Source of the DNA: Ciceribacter lividus
GTDB lineage: Bacteria > Pseudomonadota > Alphaproteobacteria > Rhizobiales > Rhizobiaceae
Assembly: GCF_003337715.1 (NCBI RefSeq)
Contig: NZ_QPIX01000001.1
Span: forward strand, 550,682 to 614,681
DNA: 64,000 bases
Reading direction: 5' to 3'
How positions within the stretch are numbered: the first letter of the stretch is position 1; each line of letters begins with the position of its first letter. The notes under the pieces are model-generated. The model was given only the letters and a program-made list of their open reading frames with translations. It was not told the DNA's origin and did not search any database. Positions 1-10,643 of the stretch are shown in pieces. The position numbers and the translations under genes were made by a program.

Positions 1-708
1 CGGGGCGCGCAGATGAAGCTCGGCCGCGGGTCGGGCGTGTCGCCGGCTTCCGTGGTCAACCAGCTCGACCATATGGGGGTTCGCGCCGTTCCGATCATCG
101 TGCTGATGTCCTTCCTGATCGGCGCGATCATCGCCCAGCAGGGGGCCTTCCAGCTGCGCTACTTCGGGGCCGAAATCTTCGTGGTCGACCTCGTCGGCAT
201 CCTGCAGCTGCGCGAGATCGGCGTGTTGCTGACGGCGATCATGATCGCCGGTCGCTCGGGAAGCGCGATCACCGCCGAGATCGGCTCGATGAAGATGCGC
301 GAGGAGATCGACGCGCTGAAGGTCATCGGCCTCAATCCCGTGGGCGTCCTCGTCTTTCCGCGGCTGGTCGCGCTGGTCGTGGCGCTGCCGCTGCTCACGG
401 TCGTCGCCAATTTCGCGGCCCTTTACGGGGCGGCGTTGGTGGCATGGGCATATTCCGGGATCACCTTCGACGTGTTCACGACGCGCCTCAACCAGGCGAT
501 CGACTATTCGACCGTCGCCTCCGGCATGATCAAGGCACCCTTCATGGCGCTGATCATCGGAATTGTCTCGGCTGTCGAAGGCATGAAGGTCGGCGGAAGC
601 GCCGAGTCGCTCGGTCGCCACGTGACGACTTCAGTGGTGAAGTCGATCTTCGTCGTCATCCTCGTGGACGGGCTGTTCGCCATGTTCTACGCCGCGATCG
701 ACTTCTGA
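1..708 (+). CDS. mlaE: MlaE-family ABC transporter permease (5' end cut by window)
   Basis: Inner-membrane permease of an Mla-type (retrograde phospholipid) ABC transporter. The frame is open from base 1, and the first internal ATG at 13 is unlikely to be the real start, so about 235 C-terminal residues are visible. Long hydrophobic helices alternate with the conserved cytoplasmic stretch around [14 protein letters not shown], followed by [14 protein letters not shown], which is typical of MlaE/PqiA-neighbour permeases. The stop is followed after 11 bases by the ATPase gene, and an MCE-domain gene and a lipoprotein gene follow, which is the standard operon order. Rhizobial members often carry an extra N-terminal STAS-like region; that part would lie upstream of this window. 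Family assignment is firm; lipid direction and substrate are inferred from the family. Confidence 0.93.
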
Positions 709-719
709 CGGAGGGCACG

Positions 720-1541
720 ATGAACGAAGCCTCCGCAGCACCGGTGACACAGGAGAGGGAAACGGTCCTGTCTGTTCGCGGCCTCACCGTCGCCTTCGGC
801 GACAAGGTCGTTCTCGACAACCTGGACCTCGACGTCTACCGCGGCGAAATCCTCGGCTTTGTCGGGGCCTCCGGCGCGGGCAAGTCGGTGCTGATGCGCA
901 CCGTCCTGCGTCTCCTGCCGCGGCGCGCCGGTACGATCCGCATTCTTGGCGCTGACTACGACAAGGTGAGCGAGGCGGAGCGGATGAACCTCGACACCCG
1001 TCTTGGCGTGCTGTTCCAGCATGGCGCGCTGTTTTCGGCGCTCACCGTCAAGGAGAACATCCAGCTTCCGATGCGGGAGTATCTCGACCTGCCGCAATGG
1101 CTGATGGACGAGCTTGCCTATCTGAAGATCAATCTGGTCGGCCTCGATCGGGATGCCGCCGACAAATATCCTTCCGAGCTTTCCGGTGGCATGACCAAGC
1201 GCGCGGCACTCGCACGTGCGCTTGCGCTCGATCCGGACCTCGTCTTCCTCGACGAGCCGACGTCGGGCCTTGATCCCATCGGTGCGGCCGAATTCGACGA
1301 GTTGATCGCCCGGCTTCGCGACACGCTGGGGCTCACGGTCTACATGGTGACGCACGATCTGGACAGCCTGTTTTCCGTCTGTGACCGCATCGCGGTACTC
1401 GGGCAGAAGCGGGTCTTGGTCGAAGGAACGTTAGACGATATGCTCGCCTGCGACGACGAATGGGTGAAGACCTATTTCAGGGGCAAGCGGGCTCGATCCA
1501 TACCACGGCCGGGACATTCCGGCGACAATCCGGTGAAGTGA
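720..1541 (+). CDS. mlaF: Mla-type ABC transporter ATP-binding protein
   Basis: Cytoplasmic ATPase (273 aa) powering the MlaE permease. Walker A GASGAGKS lies at residues 49-56, the Q-loop near FQHGALF, the ABC signature LSGGM at 154-158, Walker B LVFLDEP near 174-180 with TSGLDP after it, and the H-loop at THDL. The open frame extends further upstream, but ATG 720 is preceded by GGAGGG (710-715) and begins just after the permease stop, so it is the natural start. The C-terminal tail of about 20 residues is basic and proline-containing and is not part of the nucleotide-binding fold. Substrate (phospholipid) is inferred from the MlaE and MCE neighbours. Confidence 0.95.
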   Translation: MNEASAAPVTQERETVLSVRGLTVAFGDKVVLDNLDLDVYRGEILGFVGASGAGKSVLMRTVLRLLPRRAGTIRILGADYDKVSEAERMNLDTRLGVLFQHGALFSALTVKENIQLPMREYLDLPQWLMDELAYLKINLVGLDRDAADKYPSELSGGMTKRAALARALALDPDLVFLDEPTSGLDPIGAAEFDELIARLRDTLGLTVYMVTHDLDSLFSVCDRIAVLGQKRVLVEGTLDDMLACDDEWVKTYFRGKRARSIPRPGHSGDNPVK

Positions 1542-1550
1542 CAGGTCTCC

Positions 1551-2921
1551 ATGGAAACCAGAGCCAATTACGCAATCGTCGGTTTTTTCACGGTTTTCGT
1601 CATCGCTGCCGCATTCGGATTCGTCTACTGGATGGCCGAGTACGGCAGGGGCGGCCCCGTGGCCGCGCTGACCATCAAGATACCGGGCTCCGCCAACGGC
1701 CTGAGCATCGGCTCGCCGGTGCGCTTCAACGGCATTGCCGTCGGTACGGTGCGCAGCCTCTTCATCGACAAGGACGACCCGACGTTCTCGATCGCCAACA
1801 CCGAGGTCCAGGCGGACGCGCCGGTCACCCAGTCGACCAAGGCTGTTCTCGAGATCCAGGGCCTGACCGGGGCTGCCTATATCGAACTCTCCGGGACCGC
1901 AGCGGGCGGCGAGAACATTCTGCAGCGCGAGCTTTCGACCGGCGAGCCGGCGGTGCTGGTTGCCGAGCAGTCGAGCGTCACCAACCTGCTTTCGACCGCT
2001 GACAAGATTTTGCAGCGCGCGGACGACGCAATCGGCCAGTTCCAGGGCTTCGTCAACGATGCACGCGGGCCGCTCACCAACACGATCAAGAATGCCGAGA
2101 TCTTTTCGAAGTCGCTCGCCGACAATGCTGACGGCATCGACAAGTTCCTCAAGAGCGTCGGTGATCTCTCCGACTCGGTATCCAGCCTCTCCGGCCGGCT
2201 TGATTCGACTCTGTCGGCTGCGGAAGACCTCTTCCGGGCCCTGAACTCGGAGAAGATCGACACGATTCTTGCCAATACCGAAAAGTTCACCGGCAGCCTC
2301 GCCGAGACATCCGACAAGATCGGTCCCGCGATCGACAGCTTCAAGGAGACTGCCGATACCTTCCAGAAGTTCGGGGTGTCCGCCGGGGAGACGCTCGCCC
2401 AGGTGCGCGAACTCGTTGCCGCGGTCGACCGGCAGAAGGTCTCCAAGGTGGTCGACGACGTATCGGTCGCCTCCGCGGACGCCCGTGCGGCCATTGCCAA
2501 CTTCCAGCAGTTCAGCGAGAAGATCACCGCGCGCCAGGAGGATATCGACCAGGCGATCACCGATTTCACGCAGCTTGGAAACAAGCTCAACAACGCCTCC
2601 GACCAGCTCGACGGCATCCTCAAGAAGGTCGATGCCTTCCTCGGCTCGGGCGAAGCCGACTCGTTGAGCGTCGAGGCGCGCAAGACGCTGGTCTCCATCC
2701 GCAATGCGGCGGACAATCTGAATGCCCGGATCGGGCCGATCGCCGACAATTTCGCGCGCTTCTCGAACACCGGACTTCGCGACATCCAGGCGCTCGTCGA
2801 CGATACGCGCCAGACGGTCCGCGGGCTCGACGACGCAATCAGCAATTTCGACAAGAACCCGCAGAGGTTGCTTTTCGGCGGGGAAACGGTCAAGCAATAC
2901 GACGGACGGACTCGGCGCTGA
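1551..2921 (+). CDS. mlaD: MlaD-like MCE domain protein
   Basis: Periplasmic lipid-binding component (456 aa). Residues about 7-28 form one membrane anchor (hydrophobic run around YAIVGFFTVFVIAAAFGFVY), followed by an MCE domain at about 38-120 with the typical GSANGLSIGSPVRFNGIAVG core. The remaining 300 residues are polar, heptad-like and rich in Ala, Asp, Ser and Leu, predicting a long coiled coil, perhaps a periplasmic stalk or tunnel. This is much longer than E. coli MlaD (about 180 aa) and resembles the long MCE proteins of alphaproteobacteria. It begins 9 bases after the ATPase stop. Family is certain; the stalk role is inferred. Confidence 0.93.
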   Translation: METRANYAIVGFFTVFVIAAAFGFVYWMAEYGRGGPVAALTIKIPGSANGLSIGSPVRFNGIAVGTVRSLFIDKDDPTFSIANTEVQADAPVTQSTKAVLEIQGLTGAAYIELSGTAAGGENILQRELSTGEPAVLVAEQSSVTNLLSTADKILQRADDAIGQFQGFVNDARGPLTNTIKNAEIFSKSLADNADGIDKFLKSVGDLSDSVSSLSGRLDSTLSAAEDLFRALNSEKIDTILANTEKFTGSLAETSDKIGPAIDSFKETADTFQKFGVSAGETLAQVRELVAAVDRQKVSKVVDDVSVASADARAAIANFQQFSEKITARQEDIDQAITDFTQLGNKLNNASDQLDGILKKVDAFLGSGEADSLSVEARKTLVSIRNAADNLNARIGPIADNFARFSNTGLRDIQALVDDTRQTVRGLDDAISNFDKNPQRLLFGGETVKQYDGRTRR

Positions 2922-2952
2922 CGGTTCGAAGGCCGGAAGGGACAAGGTGGGC

Positions 2953-3573
2953 ATGGGAGAATCGGAATTCGATTTGCGCAGGCGGCGCCTTCTACGGGGC
3001 GCGGTGGTTCTGCCTCTGGTGGCTGCGGGGCTTGCCGGCTGCGGAACCGCGCCGGCGAAGAACGACACGTTCGACCTGTCGGTGGCGGCGACCGTCGAGA
3101 CCAGGGCTCAGGCGAAGAAGCGACAGATTCTGATTGCCGATCCCTCCGCGCTGAAGGCGCTGGACAGCGATCAGATCATGGTTCGCGTCTCGGCTTCCGA
3201 GATCCAGTATCTGGCGAAATCGCAGTGGAGCGACCGCCTTCCGCGCATGGTGCAGTCAAAGCTCGTCGAGGCGTTCGAAAACACCGGCCGGATCGGCGGC
3301 GTCGGCAAACCGGGGCAGGGGCTGGCGATCGACTATCAGCTCGTCACGGACATCCGCGCCTTCGAGATCGACACCACGGGCAGCGACCGCGCCGTCGTCG
3401 AGATATCCCTGAAGCTGGTTAACGACCGCAACGGCACTGTGAAGGCCCAGAAGGTGTTCTCCGCAAGCGTGCCTGCGGCGGGCGTGTCGAGCCCGTCCTA
3501 TGTCCGCGCTCTCGACCGTGCCTTTGCGCAGGTCACGGGCGAGATGGTCGCCTGGACGCTGGCACGGCTCTGA
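2953..3573 (+). CDS. ABC transport auxiliary lipoprotein (PqiC/ABC_trans_aux-like)
   Basis: Predicted outer-membrane-facing lipoprotein of 206 aa that completes the Mla/MCE operon. The N-terminus has twin-arginine-like basic residues (RRRRLLRG), a hydrophobic stretch and a lipobox ending in LAGC, so the mature protein would start at Cys about 32. The body has the alternating strand pattern of the auxiliary family (ABC_trans_aux/PqiC), including QYLAKSQWSDRLPRMVQ and a FEnTGRIGGVG-like turn. ATG 2953 is chosen because it places the signal sequence at the N-terminus; GTG 2947 in the same frame is an alternative. It lies 31 bases after the MCE gene, and a strong terminator follows. Role is inferred from operon context. 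Confidence 0.88.
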   Translation: MGESEFDLRRRRLLRGAVVLPLVAAGLAGCGTAPAKNDTFDLSVAATVETRAQAKKRQILIADPSALKALDSDQIMVRVSASEIQYLAKSQWSDRLPRMVQSKLVEAFENTGRIGGVGKPGQGLAIDYQLVTDIRAFEIDTTGSDRAVVEISLKLVNDRNGTVKAQKVFSASVPAAGVSSPSYVRALDRAFAQVTGEMVAWTLARL

Positions 3574-3657: not shown

Positions 3658-6600
3658 TCAGCCGAAGCGACCGGCGGCGTGGGCGAGCATCGTGTAGACC
3701 TTGCCCGTATCCGAGGTCAGGTAGGACTGGGTGACCGTCTTGTCCCGGTCGGTGCGGGCGACGTCTGCGAGCAGCTTCTCGAAGTCGGCGATGTAGCGGT
3801 CGACGGCGACGCGGAATTCCGGCTCGCGGTCGTACTTGCGCTTGATCTCGTCGAAGGTCTGCTGGCCCTTCAGCGTGTAGAGCCGCCGGGTGAAGACGTC
3901 GCGCTCGCCGCGCTGATAGCGCCGCCACAGCTCGACCGAGGCGTCGTGGTCGATGGCGCGGGCGATATCGACCGAAAGCGAGTTCAGCGATTCCACCATG
4001 TGGCGCGGGTTGCGGCCGTCTGTCGCGCGCGGTGCCGCCGCCGGCTCGGAGGCCTTCGGCGGGACGCCGCGGCTCTGCAGCCCGCTCGGCTCCTGCTCCT
4101 CACGGGAAGCACCGCGCAGCAGGTCGCTGATCCAGCCTCCGGTCTCCTGCCTCGCCGGCGTCGTCGAGGCGACGGGCTTTTGCTCCAGCCCGAAGCTGCC
4201 GCGAAGGGCAGGGGCTTCGACCGGGCGCTGCGGCACCGGCTGCGGCCCGGGAATGACGGCAGGCGTCGCTGCGGGGGCGGCGGCCTTCCGCGGCGGCTCG
4301 GACGGACGCGTCTCCACGGCCTTGCGCGCGACGGGTTCGGCGATCTCGAGCTGCTGGGTGGACCGGCCGACGAGCTGCGAAATGTCCTGCAGCGCCTTGA
4401 TCTGTTCGGCCACCGCCCGGCGCATCGCAGCCGCGCTCTCCTTGGCTTCTTCCGGAAGATCGAAGGCGCCGCGCTTCAGTTCGCCGCGGGTCGCATCGAG
4501 TTCCTTGCGGATGTCCTGGGCCGATCGGCGGATCTCGTCGGTGGCGCCGGAGAAGCGGGTAACCGCCTCCTCGACGGCCTGGCGCATGACCTCCCGCAGG
4601 TGGTTCGCGGCACCATCCGACTTGCGGCCGGCTTCGCCGAGCAGCCGTTCTACGTCACCGAGCGAGGCGGAGAGCCCGCCACGCAGGCGGTCGGCCAGCT
4701 CGCCGGAGCGCTGTTCGGCTTCCGAGAGCGTCTTCTCGATCGACTTGTTGGCTTCCTCGCCGGCCGAGAGCAACGCGTCGCGCATGTTGGTAGCTGTCGA
4801 CTGGGCCTGCTTCTCGGTGTCGGACAGGATCTTGCCGATATCGGCGAAGGAGGACTGGATGCTCTGGCGCAGGTTGCCTGCAACCTGACCGGAACGCTGT
4901 TCGGCGCGTTCGAAGGCGGATTCGACCATGGAGCCGAGGCCGTGCATCGTCGTCTCGATCTCTTCCGAACGCTTGACGAGACCGACCGCGAGGTCGCGCA
5001 GCGCCTGCTGGCGTTCCTCCAGCGTACCGACGAGGTTCGACTGCGCAGCACCGAGAAGCTCGGAGGCTTGGCTCAGCACCCTCGAGTGTTCGCCGAAGCG
5101 GCCGACGATCGAGGAAACCTGAGAGAGCGTCTGGTCGGAGACGGAGGCGAGCTTTTCGAGCTTGCCTTCGAGCAGCCGGCCCGACGTCTGCAGGAGGTCG
5201 GCGGCTTGCGCGGTCGTGTCGATGAAGCGCGCGGTCGTCTGGCCGAAGCGCTCGTCGGCGGCGGCGATGTTCGACGCTGCCTGTTCGACCATTTCGGTGA
5301 GCCCGGAGTTGCTCTCGGCAAGCCGGTCGATGAGCGTGCCGGCCTTTTCGGCAAGGCTTGCCTCCACGGCGCCGAGTGTCTGGGCGGCAAGCTCCGCGCG
5401 CTCGGTCAGGGCATTGAGCACGACGCCGTTTTCCGCGCGCAGCCGTTCCGCGCTTTCGCGGGCGGCCTCGGTGATCCGCTCGGCGGCGGCGCGTCCGGTC
5501 TCGGCATAGTCGGCGATGACGGGCAGGGCCTTCTCGTCGATGATGCGAGACAGCTCTGCAGAGCGGCCGGCGAGCATCGAGTTCAGTTCGCGGGTCCGCT
5601 CGTCGAGGACGGTGCGGATCGAGTTGCCGCGTGCTTCCAGCGCCTTCTCGACGGAATCCATCGTGGTCGCGAGTTCTTCGGTGTTGCCGGCGAGGGCTTC
5701 ACGGATGGCGGCAGCGCGCGCTTCGAGCGTGCTGCCCGCATCGGCGAGCGTATCGGCAAGCGAGGCGATCCGCGTGTCGACGATCGCCTCGGCTTCCGCG
5801 ATCTTGCCGGCGATCGCATCGCCTGCCTCGGAGAACGTGCGGGCGACCGACGCGGCCTGTCCGGCGAGGCGGTTCTGGGTTTCCTCGATACGGTTCGCGA
5901 GGTCTTCCGAGCGTTCTTCGACGGCACGGCTGAACTCGGCGCTGCGGGCGCCGATCGTGTCGGCGAAGTCGGCGCCGGAGCGGTTGAGGAGCTCGACGGA
6001 GCGCATGGCTTCGGTGTCGAGGGCCTGTGCGGCCTCCCCGACGGCGCTGCGCAGGGCGGCGGCAAGGCCGGCCGCCTTGCCTTCGATCGTCCGGTTGACA
6101 GCATCGAGACCGATGTTCAGGGCGCGGTCCATGGTCGACAGGCGGTCGTCGATGACCGCGGTACGGCTGTCGAAGGATTCCGCGACGCGGTTCGTGCCTT
6201 CCTCCAGCACGCGCGATACGCGCTCCGCGGCCTGCGAACCGACCCGCTCCATGTCCTCGATCTTTTCCGAGAGCTGCGCAGCGAACTTCTCGCCGGCATC
6301 GCCCACGCGGCTGTCGACGCCGTCGAGGCCGTCACGGATGCGATCCTCCAGCGTGCCGAGGCTGGTCTCGATCTTGCTGCTGGTCTCGTCCAGGCGGGCG
6401 GTCATGCCACCGACCGAGCGTTCGACGCGATCGGAGAAGTCGGCAGCCGTCCTGGTGATCTCGCCGGCGGCTTCGCTGAACTGGCCCGCGATCGACCCCG
6501 CTGTCCCGCGGAGCCGCTCTTCGAGAGCCTTGCCGCTTTCGTCGATGGTGCGGCGCAGGGATGCTTCCTGCTCCTCCAGCGACATTTCGAGCATGCCGGT

Positions 6601-9297
6601 GCTCGCCGCGATGGATGCGCCGAAGGACGTGCCCTGTTCGACGAGCGTGTTCTCGATCTGCTCGCGGGCTTCCCGCAGGGTGAGGCTGATCGAATTGGTG
6701 CGGTCCTCGAGGGTCGCGCGAATGCGATCGTGGTTCTCGCCGAGCGCATTGTCGAGGCGTGCCACACCAGTGACAACACTGTCGGAGATACGGGTGGCGC
6801 CATCTTCGATCGCGCGTTCAACGCGGCTGCTGCTGCCGCCGAGGGTGGAGGCGAGGTGCTCGGCATGGCGGAGGAGGGATTCGTCGAGCCGCTGCTGGTT
6901 GTCCGCGTAGGCGCTGCGGATCGCCTCTGCCTTGTCGGCGAAGGTCGCCTCGATCTGCCGGTCGGCATCGGCCACCGCTTCGGTGATCGCGGCCGCCCTG
7001 CGGTCGAGAACGCTCGACAGGCGATCTTCCGTGCCCGAGATGGCGTCGACGATGGCATCCGCGCGACCGGAGAGGGTCTGGTCGAGCCGCAGACGACCTT
7101 CCGAAAGGGCGGCTGCGATCTGGTGCGTCTTGTCTTCGATCGTGGAGGCGAGGCGGCTTTCGGTGCCGGAGATCGCATCGACGAGGGCTTCGGCGCGTCC
7201 GTCGAGTGTCTGATCCAAGCGCTGCTGGCCTTCTGAAAGAGCGGCGGCGATCTGATGGGTCTTGTCCTCGAGCGTCGAAGCGAGGCGGTTCTCGGTGCCG
7301 GAAATCGCACTCATCAATGCTTCGGCGCGACCGTCGAGAACCTGATCGAGGCGCTGCTGACCTTCCGAAAGAACCTCGGCGATCTCGCGGCCACGGTTTT
7401 CCAGCGTTTCGGCGAAGCGATCCTGGTTGCCGGCGAGTGCGTTGATGACGGATTCGGCGCGGCTCGAAAGCGTGTCCTCGAAACGAGTCTGGTTGGAGGC
7501 GAGGGCGTTGTAAAGTGCGCCGCTGCGCTCCTCCATGATCGCGTCGATCCGGCTCTGCGCGGCCTTCAGCGTCTCGTCGAGCGCCTGGGCCTTGCTGGCC
7601 AACGCATCGGCGATTTCCTTGGCGCGACCGGCGAGGGCGTCGTCCATCAGTTCCTGGCCGGTGCCGATTGCCGTCGCGAGCGCGAAGGACTGATCCGTCA
7701 GGGTGGAGCCGAGGCGCTCGATGCTGGAGTTGAGAATGCCGTCGATCGCGTCGGTGCCGCCGCTGACGGTCTCGTTGATCCGGGCGAGGCTCTCCATGAG
7801 CTTGCTGTCAAGGCTGCCGGCGCGCTGGTCGAAGGCGCTTGCAAACTCCGCGACGCGCTCGTCGAAGGCCGCGTTGATCTGGCCGACGGTCGCCTGGAGG
7901 CGGTCCTCGAACAGGCCCGAACGCAGGTCGAGGTCGACGATCGCGTCGTCGGCGCTGGACTGCAGGCTCCGGCGGAAGTTCGCGCCCTTTTCGTCGAGGG
8001 TGGTGTTGAGCTTGCCGAGAACGTCGTCGAGCGAGCTGGTGATGCCGCGCTCGCCGCTCGTCAGGCTCTCGGCGATCTCGCGGGTGCGCTCGACGAGCGT
8101 TTCGTTGAGCTGGCGGGCTCGTTCGTTGAGGGCGGCGTTCAGCTTCTCGGTGTTGGTGTCGAGCGACGAGGCACGAGTCTCGAATTCGCCGAGCAGGTCC
8201 TGGCCGCGCTGCGCGAGCGTGCTGGTCAATTGCTGCAGGCGCGTGTCGAATTCGCTGGCGAGCGAAATGCCGGAGGCCGACAGCGTCTGCACGAGGTTTT
8301 CGGTCTTGTTCGAAAGGAGCGTGCCCAACGACGTTGCCGCCGCGTCGGACTTCTCCATCAGCGCTGCCGCGCGCGTGTCGATCAGGGAGGCGAAGGCCTC
8401 GCCGGAGGTCGCAAGACGGACGGAGATCTCCTCGGTCGCCAGCGAAAGCTCTTCCTTCAGCTGTTCGTGAGCGCCGACGATCGAGCTGCGGATGCGCTCG
8501 GCGTGGTTGACGATCGCATCGCGCTCGGCGCTCAGTTCCTGGACGAGGCCGCGTACCCGCAATTCGTTGTCGGTATAGCTGCGCTCGAGTGCCGTCACTT
8601 CGGAGTGGACGAGGGTTTCGAGTTCGGTCGCCCGTGCGATCGTGCGTTCGATGCCCTCGTTCATCGCCGAGACTTCCCGGCGAACAGCCTGGCCGACGGT
8701 CATGATGCGCTCGGAGGCGATCGTCTCCGGCTCGGAAAGACGAAGGGCGACTTCGGCCATCGACCGGGCGACGTTGCGCAGGTCACGGGCGCGCGCCATC
8801 ATGATCGAGAAGGCGAAGATCAGCAGAACGGGGATGACCGTGCCGAGGAAAATGGCGACGAGACCGGGAACCGCCGTCGTGCCGGGGGCGCCGGATGTAT
8901 CCCAGAGCTGGTCGCCATAGAGAAGTTGTGCCAGCCCGAGCGCACAGACGACCCAGAGGATCGAGACGATCGCGGCATTGCGCAGCGCCGAGCGCATCGA
9001 AGCGCCTTCGAGCGACTTCATGATCATGGCAGGGCTGCGGCGCGAAGCGTCGTTGGCCGGTTCGAACACCGGCGACTTCGGCGCGGTTTCCGAACCGAAT
9101 TCCGCGGAGCGGGTCGCCTTCCTGGCGGGGGCGGGGCGTTGCTGGGTCTTGCCGGACACTTTGCTCTCCCGAGCGTCAGGCTTCTTTGCAAGCTGCGGCG
9201 CCGAGGTCTCTTCCTCGTCGAAATCGATCCGCAATGCCGCTTCGAGAGCCTGGAAGGCGCTTTCGTCAATCGACTCGTTGGTCTTCTTGTTCGCCAT
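3658..9297 (-). CDS. Giant membrane-anchored coiled-coil protein, growth pole ring (GPR/RgsE) type
   Basis: The protein is 1,879 aa. The first 100 residues are polar; two hydrophobic segments (about 107-127 and 143-166) anchor it; the next 1,400 or so residues are apolipoprotein-like amphipathic helix built on 11-residue periodicity; the last 110 residues form a separate conserved domain ending with DTGKVYTMLAHAAGRFG. Three successive 44-residue repeats are nearly identical. This architecture (apolipoprotein-like, about 2,000 aa, N-terminal membrane anchor) is that of Agrobacterium GPR and Sinorhizobium RgsE, which form a ring at the growing pole and are needed for unipolar growth. The start is ATG 9297 (MANKKTNES), with GAGG about 10 bases upstream; the open frame runs on to 9576 without a better start. 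Identity with GPR is from architecture, not from an alignment. Older annotations call such proteins kinesin-like. Confidence 0.82.
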   Translation of the reverse strand: MANKKTNESIDESAFQALEAALRIDFDEEETSAPQLAKKPDARESKVSGKTQQRPAPARKATRSAEFGSETAPKSPVFEPANDASRRSPAMIMKSLEGASMRSALRNAAIVSILWVVCALGLAQLLYGDQLWDTSGAPGTTAVPGLVAIFLGTVIPVLLIFAFSIMMARARDLRNVARSMAEVALRLSEPETIASERIMTVGQAVRREVSAMNEGIERTIARATELETLVHSEVTALERSYTDNELRVRGLVQELSAERDAIVNHAERIRSSIVGAHEQLKEELSLATEEISVRLATSGEAFASLIDTRAAALMEKSDAAATSLGTLLSNKTENLVQTLSASGISLASEFDTRLQQLTSTLAQRGQDLLGEFETRASSLDTNTEKLNAALNERARQLNETLVERTREIAESLTSGERGITSSLDDVLGKLNTTLDEKGANFRRSLQSSADDAIVDLDLRSGLFEDRLQATVGQINAAFDERVAEFASAFDQRAGSLDSKLMESLARINETVSGGTDAIDGILNSSIERLGSTLTDQSFALATAIGTGQELMDDALAGRAKEIADALASKAQALDETLKAAQSRIDAIMEERSGALYNALASNQTRFEDTLSSRAESVINALAGNQDRFAETLENRGREIAEVLSEGQQRLDQVLDGRAEALMSAISGTENRLASTLEDKTHQIAAALSEGQQRLDQTLDGRAEALVDAISGTESRLASTIEDKTHQIAAALSEGRLRLDQTLSGRADAIVDAISGTEDRLSSVLDRRAAAITEAVADADRQIEATFADKAEAIRSAYADNQQRLDESLLRHAEHLASTLGGSSSRVERAIEDGATRISDSVVTGVARLDNALGENHDRIRATLEDRTNSISLTLREAREQIENTLVEQGTSFGASIAASTGMLEMSLEEQEASLRRTIDESGKALEERLRGTAGSIAGQFSEAAGEITRTAADFSDRVERSVGGMTARLDETSSKIETSLGTLEDRIRDGLDGVDSRVGDAGEKFAAQLSEKIEDMERVGSQAAERVSRVLEEGTNRVAESFDSRTAVIDDRLSTMDRALNIGLDAVNRTIEGKAAGLAAALRSAVGEAAQALDTEAMRSVELLNRSGADFADTIGARSAEFSRAVEERSEDLANRIEETQNRLAGQAASVARTFSEAGDAIAGKIAEAEAIVDTRIASLADTLADAGSTLEARAAAIREALAGNTEELATTMDSVEKALEARGNSIRTVLDERTRELNSMLAGRSAELSRIIDEKALPVIADYAETGRAAAERITEAARESAERLRAENGVVLNALTERAELAAQTLGAVEASLAEKAGTLIDRLAESNSGLTEMVEQAASNIAAADERFGQTTARFIDTTAQAADLLQTSGRLLEGKLEKLASVSDQTLSQVSSIVGRFGEHSRVLSQASELLGAAQSNLVGTLEERQQALRDLAVGLVKRSEEIETTMHGLGSMVESAFERAEQRSGQVAGNLRQSIQSSFADIGKILSDTEKQAQSTATNMRDALLSAGEEANKSIEKTLSEAEQRSGELADRLRGGLSASLGDVERLLGEAGRKSDGAANHLREVMRQAVEEAVTRFSGATDEIRRSAQDIRKELDATRGELKRGAFDLPEEAKESAAAMRRAVAEQIKALQDISQLVGRSTQQLEIAEPVARKAVETRPSEPPRKAAAPAATPAVIPGPQPVPQRPVEAPALRGSFGLEQKPVASTTPARQETGGWISDLLRGASREEQEPSGLQSRGVPPKASEPAAAPRATDGRNPRHMVESLNSLSVDIARAIDHDASVELWRRYQRGERDVFTRRLYTLKGQQTFDEIKRKYDREPEFRVAVDRYIADFEKLLADVARTDRDKTVTQSYLTSDTGKVYTMLAHAAGRFG
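6976..7371 (-). repeat. Three tandem 132-bp (44-codon) repeats inside the GPR-like gene
   Basis: Units begin at 7371, 7239 and 7107 (each starting LSEG) and encode LSEGQQRLDQ, then LDGRAEAL, AISGTE, RLAST and EDKTHQIAAA. The first two units are almost identical; the third has drifted in its second half. 44 residues are four 11-residue turns of amphipathic helix. Confidence 0.9.
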
Positions 9298-9766
9298 AGG
9301 GTTACGCCTCGCTACGCATACAAGGCCGATCCGGTCGCCTTGCCCTCGCAACTTCGCCAGGGGCCACCGATCGGCCGAACTCGGGATCTTCCCGCTGCCG
9401 CCACGCCACGGGAAATCCCCTTGCAGACAAGGCCGGAATGCCCGCTTCTTCAAGCGTCGATGAAAAGCTTCCTTATCATCATCCGACCTTCGGGCAAAGC
9501 TTTGCAGCCTATGCCCCTCATATCCGTATCGTAGTGACACATTCGGGTATGCGTTACAATTAAGCGCTCCCGGCATCCCCAGGACAGCTCGTTGTTGTTA
9601 ACAGTTATTTTACAGATAGCACGTGCGAAAAGCCTGCAATGCCGGGCATTTAGGAGATGTTAACCATAGCGACAGGTTTTCCCGCCAAACGAGCGACGTC
9701 TTAAGCAGGTGGCGCCGTATTTCAACCGAGGATCGTCGCCGGGTGTAAGCATGGGAGGTGGCCGTC
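9298..9766. other. 469-bp divergent intergenic region with two CtrA-like boxes
   Basis: Upstream of both the GPR-like gene (left) and the Hpt-like gene (right). Open frames through it lack plausible starts. It has an AT-rich core (about 9590-9670) containing TTAA-N7-TTTA at 9598-9612 and TTTA-N7-TTAA at 9649-9663, each one base from the alphaproteobacterial CtrA consensus TTAA-N7-TTAA. No clear -35/-10 pair could be assigned. Confidence 0.5.
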
Positions 9767-10150
9767 ATGGCAAGTGCAAATGCGGAGATATCGGAACTTC
9801 CTTCGGAGGAAGGACAGGGCGGCGGGCGCTGCCCGTCGCGGGCGAGGCCGGTCGACCTCGTCTATCTGGCCGCGAAGACGCGCGCCGACCGCGCGACCGA
9901 AGCCGAAGTCCTGCAGGCGTTCGCAAGCCAGGTCCGGCAATGCCTGCGATCACTGGTGCCGGGCGGCGACGCGGCCGCCAACAGGACGGCGGCGGCGCGA
10001 CTGAGGGCTGCGGCCCTTGCCGTCGGCGCCTTCGCGCTGTCGGCGACGGCGGAAGCGGTCGAGAGAGACGGTGCGGACACCGATGCGATCGAATCCGTCT
10101 ACTCGCGCGTCATCGAAGCGGAAAACTTCGTCTCGGGCCTTTGTCGCTGA
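9767..10150 (+). CDS. Small Hpt-fold-like protein lacking the phospho-accepting histidine
   Basis: 127 aa, soluble, alpha-helical. Residues 28-100 follow the pattern of histidine phosphotransfer (Hpt) domains: VDLVYLAAKTRADRATEAEVLQ, then FASQ, then RLRAAALAVGA and a final AEAVE. In Hpt proteins the helix reads A-H-x-L-K-G with a phosphorylated His; here it reads A-A-R-L-R-A, so Ala 77 stands where the His would be. ATG 9767 is preceded by GGAGG at 9754-9758 (8-base spacing), better than GTG 9758. It is divergent from the GPR-like gene and upstream of the ferredoxin gene. The fold is inferred from residue pattern only. It could be an adaptor or phosphatase-regulator-like protein rather than a phosphorelay member; function unknown. 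Confidence 0.72.
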   Translation: MASANAEISELPSEEGQGGGRCPSRARPVDLVYLAAKTRADRATEAEVLQAFASQVRQCLRSLVPGGDAAANRTAAARLRAAALAVGAFALSATAEAVERDGADTDAIESVYSRVIEAENFVSGLCR

Positions 10151-10322
10151 GGGGCATTGCGCAAGCGACTATCGTAAAGTCGGCCGCACACGTCGCGGCA
10201 TTTCGGCGGTGCGACACACAGTCTCGTGAAGGAACCCATTCCAGCGGCCCGGAAATGTTGACTGGTTCGGGATTTTCGTGAATGACTTCGGCCGTCTTTC
10301 AATAGTCTATCTGGATGCCCCC

Positions 10323-10643
10323 ATGACCAAGCTGAACATCATCGCGTTCGACGGCACGCGTTTCGAAATCGATGCCGCCGACGGCTCCACCGTGATGGAG
10401 AACGCGGTGCGCAATTCCGTCCCCGGCATCGAGGCAGAGTGCGGCGGCGCCTGCGCCTGCGCGACCTGTCACGTCTATGTCGACGAGGCTTGGACCGAGG
10501 CGGTTGGGGCACCTTCGGCCATGGAAGAGGATATGCTCGACTTCGCCGTCGACGTTCAGCCGAACTCGCGCCTCTCCTGTCAGATCAAGGTGACGCCGGC
10601 GCTCGATGGTCTCGTCGTGAAGGTTCCCGAGCGTCAGGGCTGA
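10323..10643 (+). CDS. Adrenodoxin-type [2Fe-2S] ferredoxin
   Basis: Electron carrier of 106 aa. The cluster ligands are Cys40, Cys46, Cys49 (C-x5-C-x2-C within [14 protein letters not shown]) and Cys86 in RLSCQIK, the layout of vertebrate adrenodoxin and alphaproteobacterial FdVI/FdxB ferredoxins. An additional Cys44 lies inside the cluster loop. ATG 10323 gives the usual N-terminus [11 protein letters not shown]; the open frame begins 45 bases earlier. Partners in this group include cytochromes P450, Fe-S assembly or heme A synthesis; nothing nearby identifies the partner. Likely single gene with its own promoter in 10151-10322. Confidence 0.93.

Follow-up and report, generated by a model that had tools for sequence, protein, structure and literature searches.

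In the window, the whole 64,000-nucleotide stretch of the Ciceribacter lividus genome analysed here (contig NZ_QPIX01000001.1, positions 550,682 to 614,681), a GPR/RgsE orthologue gene of 1,879 codons lies at 3658..9297 on the minus strand, as do all of the protein features described below. The minus-strand open reading frame at 3658-9297 translates to exactly 1,879 residues. A longer frame, with an ATG at 9576, would give 1,972 aa; the start at 9297 is preferred because the orthologues (best 80 loci of at least 557) have a MAN/MAT..ESIDExAFQALE start there in common. From the N terminus onward, a conserved helix and a variable stretch precede a TM hairpin, after which come the rod, a linker rich in proline and the conserved C-terminal domain. 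The N-terminal helix (residues 5-23, 9229..9285) carries the ESIDExAFQALEAAL motif of the conserved orthologue start, is modeled as a helix by AF2 with low to moderate pLDDT (52-71), and is probably cytoplasmic. Hydropathy places TM segment 1 at residues 103-129 (8911..8991), within AF2 helix 89-133, and TM segment 2 at residues 137-171 (8785..8889), from which a single AF2 helix (144-298) runs into the rod. The conserved juxtamembrane helix after TM2 (residues 176-275, 8473..8772) contains numerous invariant columns in an alignment of 29 orthologues and overlaps an AF2 block at 201-290 with pLDDT of 91-97; it is a possible candidate for a partner-binding site.

The helical rod spans residues 191-1614 (4456..8727), as delimited by Pfam, proline count and periodicity, and its 1,424 residues include a single proline, at 1259. 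The standard helix rise is 0.15 nm per residue, so the rod would be about 214 nm long if it formed one straight helix. Within it are 54 consecutive hendecads with no phase slip in the 11-phase model (residues 378-971, 6385..8166) and, inside that run, a tandem unit of 44 residues (4 x 11) that is present three times (residues 642-773, 6979..7374) and was identified by TRF, the hendecad model and pair comparison. The rod is followed by a Pro/Ala-rich linker, assigned by composition (residues 1655-1764, 4006..4335), which encloses a conserved GGWISDLL motif (residues 1720-1727, 4117-4140), and by the conserved C-terminal domain (residues 1770-1879, 3661..3990), all-helical in the AF2 model. Both AF2 models, one for either end of the protein, are partial, their mean pLDDT values being 63.4 and 73.3 in no particular order, and a fold search with both against the PDB returned nothing at E<=0.001. 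The initial annotation had given the same coordinates and length, which are exact, and its outline of the protein also stands: the N-terminal double membrane anchor corresponds to the two hydrophobic segments with an AF2 helix at each, the apolipoprotein-like helix of about 1,400 residues to a PF01442 match over a stretch with one proline, and the conserved C-terminal domain is present and conserved in relatives.

Downstream of and convergent with GPR, on the plus strand (13..3573), lies an mpcEFDA-like lipid-transport operon encoding an MlaE permease, an ABC ATPase, an MlaD/MCE protein and an ABC_trans_aux lipoprotein. The mpcEFDA operon has been described in Brucella, in an article whose accessible text does not mention RgsE (PMC12436622). 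At least three of the four operon genes were found downstream in 41 of the 78 orthologue loci of the best-80 set with at least 5 kb of flank, convergent in 41/41; at least two of the four, convergent, were found at 7/20 loci outside Rhizobiales and 8/20 distant Rhizobiales loci, where the downstream flank was about 4 kb or less. No such operon turned up in the flanking sequence retrieved for the Sinorhizobium meliloti locus (L099) or for two Agrobacterium loci (L096, L106). That the two are convergent is no more than a hint that GPR and the lipid-transport operon have a task in common. Upstream of GPR, a small gene and a 2Fe-2S ferredoxin gene (9758-10643, plus strand) recur in all 76 orthologue loci of the best-80 set with enough flank; the small gene at 9758 has no Pfam match and is provisionally labeled Hpt, which is a guess. 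A RepC gene at G000:C8:241513-242703 (minus strand) is 57% identical to pAtC58 RepC, indicating that the C. lividus genome probably carries a repABC replicon.

Both end regions of the protein align to GPR and RgsE, in agreement with the orthology proposed by the initial annotation. Residues 1-249 are 59% identical to the S. meliloti 4H41 protein (L099) and 61-63% to the Agrobacterium proteins (L096, L106); over the last 180 residues the corresponding values are 73% and 79-82%, and the identity of the C-terminal region across eight compared loci is 73-83%. The references were S. meliloti 4H41 and an A. tumefaciens MAG rather than the type strains' own GPR/RgsE records, and their protein lengths (2,094 aa in S. 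meliloti, 2,120-2,121 aa in Agrobacterium) agree with the printed 2,089 aa of RgsE (SMc00190; PMC7327166) and 2,115 aa of GPR (Atu1348; PMC8262873). The gene has one copy in the C. lividus genome, and each of 142 positive Rhizobiales genomes has one C-domain match. Judged by its sequence, then, the protein is a single-copy orthologue of GPR/RgsE, the giant scaffold behind unipolar growth of rhizobia and agrobacteria. A C-terminal alignment scan of contigs gave at least 557 relatives among at least 594 stretches, of which the best 80 loci were kept, mostly from Rhizobiaceae genera and some named only "Rhizobiales bacterium"; four without the gene's 5' end (L035, L045, L073, L085) were left out, and 76 orthologues remain.

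According to the accessible text of the two primary reports, GPR/RgsE acts in a polar ring and in cell shape and interacts with TolQ, RgsA and RgsS (PMC8262873, PMC7327166); Agrobacterium without GPR forms round cells (PMC8262873), and the Brucella RgsE homologue sits at the new pole (PMC9938171). A. tumefaciens GPR is described with an N-terminal TM hairpin, an apolipoprotein-like rod, a Pro-rich region and an essential C terminus (PMC8262873), the layout seen here, although GPR is longer (2,115 aa, against 1,879 aa in C. lividus). The GPR paper reports apolipoprotein domains and two short coiled-coil predictions, and its main text, as accessible, does not contain the words "hendecad", "heptad", "repeat" or "periodicity" (PMC8262873).

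The hydrophobic periodicity of the C. lividus rod has its maximum at 3.656 residues with a power of 78.7, where the best of 200 shuffles reached 10.0; the power is 44.4 at 11/3 and 0.1 at the heptad value of 3.5, i.e., the rod lacks the periodicity of a heptad coiled coil. An 11-phase model scored 485, compared with at most 98.5 in 20 shuffles. In this model large hydrophobic residues make up 84-86% of two core phases, where charged ones account for about 1%, and phase 5 is 56% Ala/Gly/Ser/Thr; outside the 54-hendecad run there are 17 phase slips, eight of which leave a 7-residue unit. The undistorted helix has 3.63 residues per turn, and hendecad coils have little twist and depend either on a small residue in the core, as described for hendecad dimers such as FilP and Scy, or on a higher oligomer state (PMC9858780). 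These Streptomyces cell-growth proteins resemble the rod in being long hendecad coiled coils whose core includes small residues (PMC9858780), but they have a DivIVA-related N terminus, and the similarity is one of working rather than of membership. The Pfam apolipoprotein family PF01442 matches in 10 stretches (E 1.3e-51, 175.5 bits vs a gathering cut-off of 90), which we read as a match to the repeat pattern and as no proof of lipid binding.

The 44-residue unit (132 nt) is found by TRF as 2.7 copies with 78% match; its best adjacent pair shares 38/44 amino acids and 106/132 nucleotides, and the next pair 27/44 amino acids. The initial annotation was thus right about the 11-residue periodicity, which is hendecad and not heptad, and overstated the repeats as near-perfect, the copies having diverged. 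In the orthologue set (best 80 of at least 557 loci), near-identical internal DNA repeats occur in 64/77 genes, and copies at least 92% identical over 66 nt in 32/77; of 190 repeat lags, 160 are multiples of 33 nt (5.8 expected) and all are multiples of 3. Rod indels were counted as gaps of at least five residues in 140 near-neighbor orthologue pairs of the best-80 set, leaving out three loci with uncertain starts (L072, L103, L108). Multiples of 11 residues account for 341 of 482 rod gaps, where 44 are expected, and the next commonest class is 7 modulo 11 (67 gaps), i.e., hendecads plus one heptad; outside the rod only 19 of 178 gaps are multiples of 11. These indels are not independent events, because the orthologue pairs have a common history; when only rod gaps with both flanks at least 72% identical are taken, 65/87 are multiples of 11, and 52/66 after removal of same-context repeats. 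Total length ranges from 1,844 to 2,571 aa with a median of 2,169 (76 orthologues of the best 80), one orthologue being shorter than the C. lividus protein. Among orthologues, then, the hendecad phase is kept and the rod length is free, a new observation. The earlier proposal that repeats set the length of the rod stands for the step size (11 residues, 33 nt); given such wide variation between related species it does not stand for a target length, and the same range rules out a molecular ruler of one fixed length.

We consider it fairly probable (roughly 65%) that GPR/RgsE is a membrane-anchored, phase-locked hendecad strut bundled at the growth pole. The TM hairpin would anchor the protein in the inner membrane, and the TM2 helix would extend unbroken into a nearly straight hendecad coiled coil of up to about 210 nm, several chains of which may be held together by layers of Leu/Ile at phases 1 and 8 and of small residues at phase 5. 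The C-terminal domain, on its flexible Pro-rich tether, would be a putative recruiter of envelope-building partners; polar localization and the ring come from the Agrobacterium and Sinorhizobium publications in their accessible text (PMC8262873, PMC7327166). Unequal exchange between internal repeats may change the length by 11 (or 7) residues and selection would purge out-of-phase products, the steps being of this size because only in-register units keep the core continuous. The rod would thus be phase-locked and length-free, a scaffold strut and not a fixed ruler.

The alternative that survives best is an apolipoprotein-like lipid binder, with the rod resting on the inner membrane or binding lipid by its hydrophobic face and organizing polar lipid supply, which is close to the proposal of the GPR authors in the accessible text (PMC8262873) and which we regard as rather unlikely. 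Phase-locking fits a coiled coil and a lipid-lying amphipathic helix alike, and for this reason the latter keeps a place at lower odds. The PF01442 match speaks for it, as do the solved chains matched at E<=0.01, only two apolipoprotein A-IV sequences, and the disturbed cell shape on deletion of ApoA-IV-like domains (PMC8262873). The adjoining lipid-transporter operon in C. lividus and some distant relatives points the same way; however, convergent gene order is weak functional evidence and, as noted, the operon was not found in the fetched flanks of the S. meliloti and Agrobacterium loci. Shortage of proline and a narrow hydrophobic stripe favor bundling: the rod has one proline in 1,424 residues, whereas prolines in the matched stretch of ApoA-IV are mostly 22 residues apart, and of every 11 positions two are strongly hydrophobic and a third is small. 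Some weak lipid binders are also built of 11-mers with a narrow face, so this argument is not decisive. Human apolipoprotein A-IV, a PF01442 protein, shares the 11/22-residue amphipathic helix pattern; unlike the nearly proline-free GPR rod, it is a proline-punctuated, small single-domain lipid-transport protein (PMC8262873).

Very improbable, in our judgment, is a role of the rod as cytoplasmic shaft in a TolQ-type, proton-driven motor complex, with TolQR moving or tilting it. Matches of ZorA models to the rod reach E 8.3e-29, the ZorA tails of Zorya defense form a pentameric cytoplasmic rod (PMC11890865), and RgsE interacts with TolQ (PMC7327166); both systems would share a membrane-anchored, long cytoplasmic helical rod with profile similarity along it. 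However, the matched ZorA stretches (PADLOC) fall in the rod and not in a motor domain, the NCBIfam ZorA model scores 50.9 bits against a cut-off of 190, and the fold search with the N-terminal model reached a TolAQR chain only at E 7.4. Shared hendecad composition explains the ZorA matches more simply; other long helical families (LmuB, LeoA) match as well, and MotA_ExbB is not among the Pfam families found in the protein. Homology with ZorA is therefore rejected; the likeness is confined to the repeat, with no motor domain found in the C. lividus protein, and does not amount to membership. It is scarcely credible that the 11-residue indel steps are an alignment artefact, since periodic sequence is able to draw gaps into register but indels simulated at random positions in the same proteins gave only 14/175 multiples of 11, so that the pattern is not made by the aligner, and the 33-nt repeat lags need no gapped alignment.

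Beyond the closest relatives, the C-domain was found in 142 of 150 sampled Rhizobiales genomes (E<=1e-5), and a profile search of the other eight gave a sole match at E 0.82; three of the eight are the sampled members of family f36. RgsE homologues have been reported from every Rhizobiales family (PMC7327166, accessible text). Neither the C-domain nor MreB was found in five genomes, G036, G078 and G113 of f36 and G068 and G135 of f23, three of them at least 99% complete. Outside Rhizobiales, the C-domain is present in 84 of 237 genomes (E<=0.001) from more than 50 family codes; the sample as drawn had 87 positives of 240, three of the 240 belonging to Rhizobiales. Distant RgsE homologues in Emcibacterales and Rhodospirillales are already in print (PMC7327166), and the relatives found here outside the order may in part be these. 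Two outside genomes (G247, G378) have two C-domain matches each, which may be paralogues, contamination or split contigs.

Rods were read in 40 of the 84 outside and 60 of the 142 Rhizobiales genomes, hand-picked across families and enriched for MreB-bearing ones; L175 was left out for its short rod, which leaves 59 Rhizobiales rods, and L185, L204 and L217 were retained though 5'-open. The layout is the same outside the order: 39 of the 40 relatives are 5'-complete, and all 39 combine the C-domain with a long stretch of helical pattern and with hydrophobic segments near the N terminus, two in 29 proteins and a single one in 10 at the threshold used. In 40/40 rods read, however, this layout is built on a 25-residue repeat, a new observation: the 25-residue autocorrelation exceeds the 11-residue one, and lies above all 200 shuffles, in every one, whereas Rhizobiales rods are 11-dominant in 55/59. 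Three outside rods were fitted, of which two hold the 25-residue register unslipped over 929 and 739 residues and one of 1,075 slips once. Signals can be mixed, the 11 signal lying above all 200 shuffles in 17/40 outside rods and the 25 signal in 24/59 Rhizobiales rods; in L136, L138, L140 and L218 the 25 signal is narrowly above the 11 signal, and the outside rods L145 and L218, with 12 and 13 prolines, are not clean rods. An N-terminal profile matched 12/40 outside proteins vs 57/59 in Rhizobiales (E<1e-3), and two rod controls were likewise hit by this profile, at E values around 1e-9 to 1e-10, so that outside Rhizobiales it is mostly the C-domain alone that is homologous by sequence. Two close pairs outside Rhizobiales were compared for putative 25-residue indel steps; one has a gap of 54 residues and the other has gaps of 2 and 3. 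Full-text searches of open-licence papers listed none that appears to report a hendecad rod in this protein, a change of its repeat from 25 to 11 or its neighboring Mpc operon.

In an RpoB tree of 78 genomes made by a quick method, including 22 of the 40 outside genomes (the RpoB search found none in G018 and G049), Rhizobiales fall on one side of a branch with support 99, and the repeat type requires two changes. One Rhizobiales clade, of 15 genomes (support 100), takes an intermediate position, mostly near 3.62; in another, of 29 genomes that all lack MreB (support 99), the rods span 1,006-2,384 residues and lie at 3.654-3.668, with G136 as the exception at 3.608. Three 25-dominant Rhizobiales rods, L197 (f51) and L154 and L155 (f4), group on the tree (support 92), and their 25-dominance is either the old state retained or a reversal. 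Since Rhizobiales are nested in the class, the 25-residue repeat is likely the older state. By the rule of 3.63 residues per turn, a 25/7 rod would be twisted mildly to the left and an 11/3 rod very mildly to the right.

MreB (E<=1e-40) was found in 18 of 150 Rhizobiales genomes, 17 of which also have the C-domain; the exception, G128, has MreB without the GPR domain in a genome 88% complete. Outside Rhizobiales, MreB accompanies GPR in 78 of 84 genomes; among the six negatives, G363 is counted as one because it is missing from the positives. GPR thus mostly coexists with MreB outside Rhizobiales, and does so in 17/18 inside, a new observation against the published reading of Rgs and MreB as mutually exclusive, which came from four MreB-bearing Rhizobiales species without Rgs homologues (PMC7327166, accessible text) by that study's own homologue search, while the present count is of the C-domain. 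The median rod is 687 residues in 14 MreB-bearing and 1,378 in 45 MreB-less Rhizobiales genomes. We do not retain loss of MreB as the driver of longer rods: four independent pairs lie on well-supported RpoB branches, and sign tests were not significant.

In a tentative scenario, possible in our view though doubtful, GPR would be an ancient strut of the alphaproteobacterial envelope that first arose for something other than polar growth without MreB. Its rod, originally built on a 25-residue (7+7+11), mildly left-handed repeat, would have switched close to the base of Rhizobiales to an 11-residue repeat with an almost straight or slightly right-handed course, and would then have been extended by hendecad duplication to 1,000-2,400 residues; the new twist and modular growth may have enabled a pole-ring scaffold in MreB-less lineages, alongside mpcEFDA. 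The swap of repeat from 25 to 11 with the end domain kept would be an unusual natural experiment on what such a rod requires, and if the rod is phase-locked, insertions of 11 or 7 residues are expected to be tolerated and those of 3 or 5 to fail. The overlap with MreB means that the original job of GPR could be studied in bacteria that keep MreB, and the findings bear on how an MreB-less bacterium restricts wall growth to one pole.
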